Shown: positions 52,017 to 54,526 of the stretch, one piece after another | Position numbering within the stretch: the first letter of the stretch is position 1 | Layout of the letters: each line of letters begins with the position of its first letter | Assembly: GCA_016867715.1 (NCBI GenBank) | Contig: VGIW01000004.1 | Location: forward strand, 1-64,000 | Length of the DNA: 64,000 nt | DNA from: Candidatus Eisenbacteria bacterium | GTDB lineage: Bacteria; Orphanbacterota; Orphanbacteria; Orphanbacterales; Orphanbacteraceae | Reading direction: 5' to 3' | Made by a program: the position numbers and the translations under genes | Notes under the pieces: model-generated | The model's database searches: none | Seen by the model: only the letters and a program-made list of their open reading frames with translations | Told to the model about the DNA's origin: nothing

Positions 52017-53516
52017 TCAGCCGAGCCCGTACTTCTTGATCTTCCGATAGAGGGTTCGCTCCCCGATCTCGAGGATCTCCGCGGCTCGCCGGCGGTTCCC
52101 TCCCGACTCGGCGAGCGCTTTCCGGATCGCCTCCTTCTCGTGGTCGGCCGCCGTCCGAGTCGCGCGCGGCTCGGCCGTCTCCTCGAGTTCGACCACTTCC
52201 GTTTCCGGTCCGAACGGGCCCTCGCGCGAGGGGCGGTACGAGGCGGAAGGAACGCGTCCGCCGCAGGCGCGGACCAGCATCTCGCGAAGCTCCGCGAGCT
52301 CCCGGCGGAGAGCGACGAGGTTCTGCAGGATCAGCTCCCGCTCCGTTCGCGTCGCGGCGTCGGGGAGGGGAACCGGAAGGTGGCGCGAGCGCGAGAAACG
52401 CTCCCCAAGGAAGCGCGCCGCCTCGTCCGCGTCGATCGTCTCCCCGTGCTCGAGGATGGTGAGCTTCTCGACCAGATTCTTGAGCTGTCGGATGTTCCCA
52501 GGCCAATGATATTCGGCGAGCGCCTGAAGGGCGTCCCGCGTAAAACGGACCGGTTCGATCCCGTGGTCGGCGCCCGCTTCCGCGGCGAAGGTTTGCACGA
52601 GGTCGGGAATGTCCTCGCGCCGCTCGCGGAGGGGCGGGAGGTGGAGCTGAATCACGTTGAGGCGGTAGAAGAGATCCTCGCGAAACCGGCCGGCCTGGAC
52701 CGCCGCCTCGAGGTCGGCGTTCGTCGCCGCGAGGAGGCGCACGTCCACGACCACGTCCCGCACGCCGCCGACCCGGAGAAAGCGCTTCTCCTCGAGAACG
52801 CGGAGGAGCTTGGCCTGCGTTTGGATCGGCATGTCGGCGATCTCGTCGAGGAAGAGCGTTCCCTTGTGGGCGAGCTCAAAGCGTCCCTCGCGCCGCGAGG
52901 TCGCCCCGGTGAAGGCGCCCTTCTCATGCCCGAACAGCTCGCTCTCGAGAACCCCCTCGGGGAGCGCTGCGCAGTTCACCGCGACGAACGGGTTCTCCCG
53001 GCGCCGGCTCTTCTCGTGAACGAGGCGCGCGGCGACATCTTTCCCCGTCCCGCTCTCGCCGGTGATGAGGATCGTCATCGAGGTGGGGGCCACCTGATCG
53101 ATCGTCCGGCGGATCCGCTCCATCTCGCGGCCCCGGCCGATGAGGCGAAGCTCCGGCTCCGGCGGTCTCTTCTCCGCGAGAAGACCGCGGACCGCGTCGA
53201 TCACCTCGCCGGTCGAGCGGCCGGAGAGGTTCAGGAACTCGTCGCCGACGAGCGAGGTGCGATCGGGCTCAGGAAGAAGGAGAGCCGCCCGAATCCCGGG
53301 GAAACGCCGGGCGAGACCGCGGAGAAGGACGCGCGGCGCGATCTCCTCCGGCATCCCCACGACGACGAGCGCACAGTTCCGGTCCGCTTTCAGGGCGCGG
53401 AGGGTCTCCTCGCCGCTCGCCAACTCGGCGACCTCGAAGCCGGCCTTCCGAAAGGCGGCCGGAAGATCCCGGTTTCTCTCCGGAATCCGTCCCGCGACAA
53501 ACACGGTGCTCGCCAT
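52017..53516 (-). CDS. Sigma-54-dependent transcriptional activator with degenerate receiver domain
   Basis: A 499-residue NtrC-family protein on the minus strand, ATG at 53516. Residues ~4-115 have a CheY-like outline ([14 protein letters not shown]) but the phospho-acceptor strand reads [10 protein letters not shown], with no Asp, and the acidic pair and the Lys of the K-P motif are also absent. The AAA+ domain is intact: Walker [22 protein letters not shown] for sigma-54 contact, Walker [13 protein letters not shown], arginine finger region in F-R-E-D-L-F-Y-R. The C-terminal Fis-type helix-turn-helix is [20 protein letters not shown]. It probably responds to something other than phosphorylation. 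Targets unknown. Confidence 0.92.
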
Positions 53517-53531
53517 CGAACCCCCGAACTG

Positions 53532-53560
53532 TTTCTACCACGCGGGGTTCAGGCGGTCAA
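53532..53560 (-). promoter_or_regulatory. Sigma-70-type promoter for the sigma-54 activator
   Basis: On the minus strand: TTGACC (53560-53555), 17-nt spacer, TAGAAA (53537-53532). The start codon is 15 nt beyond the -10, so the leader is about 8-9 nt and just contains a GGGGG. Confidence 0.6.
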
Positions 53561-53565
53561 GAAGG

Positions 53566-53598
53566 GGGCGGTGCGGACGGGGGACCGCCGCACCGCCC
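53566..53598 (-). terminator. Outward-facing terminator-like hairpin at the left end of the repeat array
   Basis: An 11-bp perfect stem (53566-53576 with 53588-53598), followed on the minus strand by CCTTCTT. Its loop and flanks are an inverted, roughly 80% similar copy of the terminator at 54151-54191. The T-run is short. Confidence 0.45.
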
Positions 53599-53677
53599 TC
53601 CCGCGGATGGAGCCGCCCGGGATCGGGATGTTCGGGGGCTGCCGCGGTTCTCTTCCGGCCGGCTCATCCGCGGGGGG

Positions 53678-54165
53678 AGTGGTCGATGAGCGCGAGGCTG
53701 AGCATGCGTCCGCGGGTGAGCCGCCGGGCGGGGACGAGGGTGGTCGGGTCTTAGGCGTTTGTCCCGGACGGCTCCACCCGCGGAGCGGGGGCGGGGGGGA
53801 GTGGTCGATGAGCGCGAGGCTGAGCGCGCGTCCGCGGGTGAGCCGCCGGGCGGGGACGAGGGTGGTCGGGTCTTAGGCGTTTGTCCCGGACGGCTCCACC
53901 CGCGGAGCGGGGGCGGGGGGGAGTGGTCGATGAGCGCGAGGCTGAGCATGCGTCCGCGGGTGAGCCGCCGGGCGGGGACGAGGGTGGTCGGGTCTTAGGC
54001 GTTTGTCCCGGTCGGCTCCACCCGCGGAGCGGGGGCGGGGGGGAGTGGTCGATGAGCGCGAGGCTGAGCATGCGTCCGCGGGTGAGCCGCCGGGCGGGGA
54101 CGAGGGTGGTCGGGTCTTAGGCGTTTGTCCCGGACGGCTCCACCCGCGGAGCGGGGGCGCGGCGG
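53678..54165 (+). repeat. Four tandem copies of a 122-bp unit with hairpin and micro-ORF
   Basis: Copies begin at 53678, 53800, 53922 and 54044, with exact 122-nt spacing; copy 1 is preceded by a partial unit from about 53646. Between copies I see only an AT-to-GC change in copy 2 and an A-to-T change in copy 3, until copy 4 diverges at its end into a terminator. Within each unit, CCGCGGGTGAGCCG (bases 33-46) pairs with CGGCTCCACCCGCGG (92-106), a stem interrupted by one bulge. Each also has GGGGAG six bases before an ATG opening a 22-codon arginine-rich frame that ends in TAG (53686-53754, 53808-53876, 53930-53998, 54052-54120). The period is not a multiple of three, so no single protein spans the array in one repeating frame. 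Confidence 0.9.
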
Positions 54166-54191
54166 TCCTCCGTCCGCGCCCCCGCCTTTTT
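54151..54191 (+). terminator. Strong rho-independent terminator at the right end of the repeat array
   Basis: GCGGGGGCGCGG (54151-54162) pairs perfectly with CCGCGCCCCCGC (54174-54185) over an 11-nt loop, followed by CTTTTT. It stops rightward transcription from the array immediately before the rpsU promoter. Confidence 0.85.
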
Positions 54192-54193
54192 GC

Positions 54194-54221
54194 TTGACAG
54201 ACCGGAAGTCCATGATACCCT
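54194..54221 (+). promoter_or_regulatory. Probable rpsU promoter
   Basis: TTGACA at 54194-54199; the best -10 at 16-nt spacing is TACCCT (54216-54221), matching 3 of 6. It lies directly after the terminator T-run. Confidence 0.45.
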
Positions 54222-54328: not shown

Positions 54329-54526
54329 ATGTCTCGGGTGAAGGTCAAGGACGGCGAGCCGATCGACAAGGCGATCCGGCGTTTCAAGAAGAAATGCGAG
54401 AAGGATGGGATCGTCCAGGACATGCGAAAGAAGGCTCGCTTTCTGAAACCAAGCGAACGGCGGCGCAAGAAGGCGCTCAAGGCGGAGAAGAGGCGCCGCA
54501 CGGAGGCCCTGAAGACGGGCCGTTAG
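54329..54526 (+). CDS. rpsU: Ribosomal protein bS21
   Basis: A 65-residue basic protein from ATG 54329 with AAAGG upstream (a longer frame into the repeats has no merit). It has the bS21 pattern: V-K-V-K-D-G-E-P-I-D-K-A-I-R-R-F-K-K, then R-K-K-A-R-F-L-K-P-S-E-R-R-R-K-K and a Lys/Arg tail. It sits on the 30S platform next to the anti-Shine-Dalgarno. A leader of about 100 nt contains GGCAG-CCGGT-CTGCC near 54287-54301, a small hairpin close to the start that could allow feedback control. Confidence 0.95.
   Translation: MSRVKVKDGEPIDKAIRRFKKKCEKDGIVQDMRKKARFLKPSERRRKKALKAEKRRRTEALKTGR

Follow-up and report, generated by a model that had tools for sequence, protein, structure and literature searches.

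A tandem hairpin array between rpsU and a sigma-54 activator gene as probable part of a genus-restricted palindromic element

The 122-bp repeats that lie between rpsU and the divergent gene of a sigma-54 activator are best explained, with a probability of about 0.7, as part of a low-copy palindromic element that is dispersed within one genus and has been expanded in tandem at this locus. When complete, this B-A element measures 120–165 nt. Judged from its sequence and distribution it is genus-restricted, REP/REPIN- or MITE-like and probably mobile. Since its copies are scattered and often placed against promoters, it comes closer to the known bacterial palindromic repeats than to a new RNA machine, and it would add a poorly known deep-subsurface lineage to those with palindromic interspersed repeats.

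The array and its parent module

Within the window, the 64,000-nt stretch of DNA that was analysed, the array (53672–54159, plus strand) is by far the best-scoring tandem repeat detected by TRF, with a period of 122, 98% matches, a score of 955 and 4.0 copies, a count that rests on a draft assembly of 172 contigs. The first-pass annotation of this DNA had described four copies at 122-nt spacing that differ at few bases. A comparison of the units bears this out, the only variable positions being 33, 34 and 97 of the unit, and recent expansion or homogenisation, as proposed at the time, is supported. The long stem that it had recognized in each unit is found in all of them (CCGCGGGTGAGCCG / CGGCTC-C-ACCCGCGG, with a 1-nt bulge on the 3′ arm), and so is an inner extension of the stem, GGGGAC/GTCCC. 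Correct as well was the placement in an 812-nt gap, which separates the start of the activator gene at 53516 from that of rpsU at 54329. The activator gene (52017–53516, minus strand) encodes a sigma-54-interaction-domain (AAA+/Fis-HTH) regulator (Pfam PF00158, 8e-72; PF02954), and the divergent rpsU (54329–54526, plus strand) encodes ribosomal protein bS21 (PF01165, 8e-20). Two further readings were discarded, as they had been before: a CRISPR array, as the 122-bp copies follow each other head to tail without unique spacers (TRF), and a protein repeat, as 122 bp is no whole number of codons and the ORFs of the array are the usual long frames of GC-rich DNA.

A point missed by the first-pass annotation is that the array lies between inverted copies of a single module. 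A repeat search detects an inverted repeat of 65 nt (82%) with its arms at both ends of the 812-nt gap, and the natural unit turns out to be a 124-nt module in which hairpin B (14 bp with a 1-nt bulge) is directly followed by hairpin A (14 bp with a bulged T). Two modules are present in inverted orientation, at 53553–53676 on the minus strand and at 54073–54196 on the plus strand, each facing outward to a promoter, and the pair occupies the interval from the −35 box of the activator gene to that of rpsU, the two promoters being divergent. In the left module (117 bits with CM R1) hairpin B extends from about 53674 to 53600 and hairpin A from about 53598 to 53566, the A end being 5 nt away from the activator −35. 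The right module (CM R1, 95.8 bits) is composed of the fourth copy of hairpin B′ (54075–54150) and of A′ (54151–54185), which carries a terminator-like T5 tail. The latter had been called a perfect terminator, but its stem contains the bulged T and a scan for bulge-free terminators does not report it.

The array itself consists of four repeats of the right module's B′ hairpin together with the adjoining spacer. The first three B′ copies lie on the plus strand at 53709–53784 (CM R1 positions 3–78), 53831–53906 and 53953–54028 and score 46, 46 and 44 bits with CM R1. Each unit consists of the spacer, hairpin B′ and a truncated first arm of A′; this first arm is kept at each unit junction (AGCGGGGGCG) while a complete A′ is present in the last unit only. 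The junctions fall in G-runs (GCGGGGGGAG / GCGGGGGCG).

Complete modules fold beyond shuffled sequences, with z = −5.2 (left) and −4.2 (right) as RNA and −6.3 for both as DNA. The fold energy of one array unit is ordinary for its composition and lies within chance (z = −0.11 as RNA, −1.23 as DNA). For the earlier proposal that the array acts as RNA we found no positive evidence, with neither an Rfam match nor a promoter inside the array detected. Hairpin A, about 32 nt long with a 14-bp stem, forms together with hairpin B intergenic doublets of 120–165 nt. Among six copies of the module 5 of the 28 pairs have changed on both sides, a value reached in 1 of 500 shuffles, and among 12 copies of hairpin A this applies to 7 of the 14 pairs (21 cells) and to none of 500 shuffles. 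Slid controls score far below these counts, which are possibly overstated because the few related copies share ancestry. The bulged T of hairpin A is present in all 12 copies; in hairpin B the bulge stays in place while its base may be C, T or G. From the covariation, we infer that the hairpin structure is under constraint.

Both promoters that the modules face have counterparts in other genomes of the family. The activator promoter (53532–53560, minus strand) consists of a −35 box TTGACC (53560–53555), a 17-nt spacer and a −10 box TAGAAA (53537–53532); G001, G002, G004 and G005 all retain TTGACC and have a −10-like box in the corresponding position. The rpsU promoter (54194–54221, plus strand) has the −35 box TTGACA (54194–54199), a 16-nt spacer and the extended −10 TGATACCCT, a pattern shared with G001, G002 and G005 and found less exactly in G003.

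Relatives of the element and signs of mobility

The first-pass annotation had named the search for a homologous unit in the same genome as a check. Homologues exist at about seven other loci of the genome under study, G000 (C27, C14, C10, C16, C26, C73 and C5), so that its proposal came through this part of its own refutation test. The covariance model, whose E-values come from a short calibration, counts about a dozen copies for G000 and 7–9 for its sister species DeMMO4_6 (G001), these two species representing the genus. Locus C27, also situated between divergent genes, carries two tandem modules that are 98% alike, with a unit of 169 nt, whereas its orthologue in the sister species has a single module. 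Tandem growth of hairpins is thus seen at two separate loci in one genome. The copies at C14, C10, C16, C26, C73 and C5 have diverged in sequence. In G001 the element is found at the orthologous rpsU/activator locus, at the C27 orthologue, at C311 and at C162; at the first of these the assembly breaks and the locus is split over two contigs, each of which stops within the repeats.

The searches gave no convincing copy in genera g2, g3 and g4 of the family, and there is one good match outside the genus, at G005:C24. Here (L195:3055–3140) two adjacent bulged hairpins, one of them matching hairpin A (E 7e-7), sit between small same-strand genes and look like a cassette-array or attC-like relic. 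A scan of about 85,000 species genomes with the B-hairpin pattern matched DeMMO4_6 and one member of the Planctomycetota only, and the latter match was judged to be due to chance because it comes without the module. The motif CCGCGGRTGRAGCCG, with two mismatches allowed, was set aside as it occurs at chance level (235 matches vs 225 in the control) except for two strong loci. The shorter pattern GCGGCG-N-CGTCCGC is enriched in both species of the genus, with 59 matches vs 12 for the reversed pattern in G000 and 42 vs 9 in G001, and shows no enrichment in five other genomes of the family. Most single matches of this pattern are not extended hairpins, and the copy number was therefore taken from the covariance model.

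Several observations point to insertion and copy-number change. Three other genera have this gene pair too, with −35 boxes 115, 78 and 106 nt apart, whereas the distance is 633 nt here; the hairpins and the array are therefore a lineage-specific filling of what is otherwise a short gap between promoters. The activator leader of the sister species carries an extra copy of part of the element, a clean 64-nt insertion comprising A and the end of B, between the −10 box and the start codon (L015:152–218, G001:C180), and the window contains the uninterrupted sequence, i.e. the empty site of this insertion. No target duplication is visible at the 64-nt insertion. The full C311 element of G001 is absent from the orthologous locus of G000, with a junction that is not clean on one side. 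By the 64-nt insertion and C311, the element shows the presence/absence differences between relatives that characterize MITEs. This pattern of insertion and copy-number change agrees better with a mobile palindromic repeat of DNA than with a gene for an RNA.

Such an element might have spread by single-strand or hairpin-recognising transposition, using an IS200/IS605-RAYT-like or another trans-acting transposase, and it would prefer or tolerate AT-rich promoter edges. At the rpsU locus, hairpin B′ and the spacer could later have been multiplied to four by slippage or unequal recombination between the G-runs of the present junctions. With hairpin A beside each −35, transcription leaving the array would be halted; A′ with its T5 tail could terminate toward rpsU and the left A, less efficiently, toward the activator gene. 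In addition, the 633-nt insert would keep apart two promoters that lie close together in relatives. An effect of the hairpins or the array on the host need not be adaptive.

Promoter proximity and alternative explanations

Judged by eye, hairpin A has its outer end close to a promoter box, at a distance of about 8 nt or less, in seven cases. Hairpin A lies upstream of the −35 box at the activator, rpsU, C27 and C311 promoters (3–8 nt), and downstream of the −10 box at C26/C162, at the activator insertion of G001 and at C73:2846. Conservation across genera supports the promoters of rpsU and the activator gene; for those at C27, C311 and C26 the support comes from two species, and for that at C73:2846 from a single sequence. 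At the copies of C14, C10, C16, C5 and C39 inspection by eye revealed no clear promoter. Published REPs are mostly located between unidirectional and convergent genes (PMC3733652), and a case in which repeats crowd divergent promoters is unusual in comparison. It is conceivable, but doubtful, that we are dealing with a new kind of bulged-hairpin mobile element which inserts with A foremost and in fixed orientation at promoter edges, upstream of −35 or downstream of −10. It would perhaps capture melted promoter DNA and often leave truncated copies with a constant A end. A preference for AT-rich targets in a genome of 70% GC would equally give promoter adjacency. If the promoter preference holds, the target choice of such elements would be open to simple comparative genomics.

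Identical hairpins that are repeated, covary and, in the complete modules, fold strongly, with the terminator-like A′ and its T5 tail at the right end, might also suggest a regulatory RNA, i.e. an array that is transcribed rightward into a multi-hairpin RNA ended by A′, immediately ahead of the rpsU promoter, and serves as a protein-binding sponge or sRNA array. We consider this unlikely. Rfam yields no family above its gathering score, the matches being at chance level and outside the array, and none at the related loci; the single unit, as mentioned, does not fold beyond chance, and the A copies at C311, C10 and C26 have no T run. Moreover, copies are located on both sides of promoters and their presence differs between the sister species. 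The array also has no promoter-like site at the scan threshold, a weak test as the same scan misses the rpsU promoter. Slightly harder to sustain is an insulator selected at divergent promoters, in which A against the −35 box would prevent both read-through and interference of the promoters, and the spacing or the supercoiling between the two genes would be adjusted by the array. The abutment of A at the −35 boxes of the activator, rpsU, C27 and C311 promoters would agree with it, as would the module ends at rpsU and the activator gene, which keep their position in G000 and G001. In genus g3 (L159, G003; L158, G006) another large GC-rich hairpin, apparently unrelated, is found upstream of the rpsU promoter, which could be read in the same sense. 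However, three copies lie downstream of a −10 box, the G000 orthologue of C311 has the same promoter without the element, and other genera make do with 78–115 nt and no such hairpin.

An altogether different origin of the four-copy number, namely that it was made or altered by the short-read assembler, is very improbable. The assembly is indeed a draft of 172 contigs and that of the sister species breaks at the same place, but individual units have variants of their own at positions 33/34 and 97, the copies of the second tandem locus, C27, differ by 2%, and two species support the modules that are not repeated. Least probable of all are integron attC-type recombination sites or their remnants, folded as single strands with extrahelical bases. 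They were considered because of the match at G005:C24, the only good copy outside the genus, which adjoins another bulged hairpin between small same-strand genes, and we take the bulged stem of hairpin A to be similar to attC-like stems. A hairpin with extrahelical bases is common to both. The copies read by eye have no RYYYAAC...GTTRRRY boxes (the R/L core boxes) at the stem base, on which ground this origin was rejected, and there are no cassettes between the array units.

Comparison with known palindromic repeats and the search for a transposase

A mobile palindromic repeat, which we favour, has its closest parallels in the REPINs of Pseudomonas fluorescens SBW25, short intergenic palindromes in hairpin doublets for which mobility is likewise inferred. 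REPINs form tandem clusters of near-identical units including their flanks, the largest with four REPINs and more than 700 bp (PMC3116915), much as the units are clustered here. Hairpin A has the properties expected of a REP, an extragenic palindrome of 20–40 nt that often occurs in doublets. In contrast to REP/REPIN sequences, no GTAG tag was seen, there are about a dozen copies instead of hundreds, and two different hairpins follow each other head to tail where REPINs have one REP as an inverted pair, the present locus being the exception. The element is also often found beside promoters and has no adjacent RAYT. The aligned copies show no unpaired GTAG or CGTC end tag and no GTAG at the hairpin bases. 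CGTC-tagged REPs (PMC3733652) resemble the element as palindromes without a dedicated transposase, and hairpin A does contain CGTC; however, it is situated inside the 3′ arm of A, with the T bulged, and is not an unpaired end tag, and the stem of A has 14 bp vs 8–9. REP families of 20–100 units or fewer exist (PMC3733652). In E. coli, bulges are important to the transposase that recognizes the REPs (PMC8266576), so that an element of this type could well display an invariant bulge.

With the E. coli BIMEs the element shares a mosaic of two hairpin types, alternating orientation and local amplification, but it is not sited after genes and its sequence is unrelated. Like MITEs (Correia/NEMIS, ERIC, RUP) of 70–300 nt, it is non-autonomous, intergenic, strongly folded and found beside genes; unlike them, it has revealed neither terminal inverted repeats matching an IS nor a target-site duplication. 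No clear terminal inverted repeats are apparent at the element ends, which differ from each other, with B at one end and A at the other. Since the end tag, the RAYT linkage, the terminal inverted repeats and the target-site duplication all failed to appear, we have not filed the element in any named REP family.

Genes for RAYT-like Y1_Tnp proteins are present in G000 (at C2, C54 and C24) and G001, the two species of the genus, and absent from G002, G003 and G006. This correlation is suggestive but weak because G004 also has one Y1 gene. No copies of the element occur near the Y1_Tnp genes of G000 and G001 in the surrounding loci, up to about 3 kb. One of these genes in G000 (L148:1083–2110, C54) encodes a RAYT-like Y1 transposase and has an inverted repeat of its own, GGTACCTGATACC, on its flanks; it is of the TIR-flanked rather than the REP-flanked type. 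A second one (L150:1507–2349, G000:C24) has the Y1 transposase domain followed by a weak match to a DnaA C-terminal-like HTH (PF08299, below the curated cut-off).

The genome contains other repeats of a comparable kind. A different tandem hairpin repeat with 117-nt spacing (GGGTGGCGGCGGCAGGCGTCCGC...) is located at G000:C1:55548–55682 (L070, L071) and has likely relatives at C7:45829 and C44:12333, which suggests further palindromic repeat families in G000. Beside the element copy of C14 (L065:3800–3990), the sequence CTAGCCTGGACTATGCACGCGTTT is found twice, in opposite orientations and some 140 nt apart, and is perhaps another small element.
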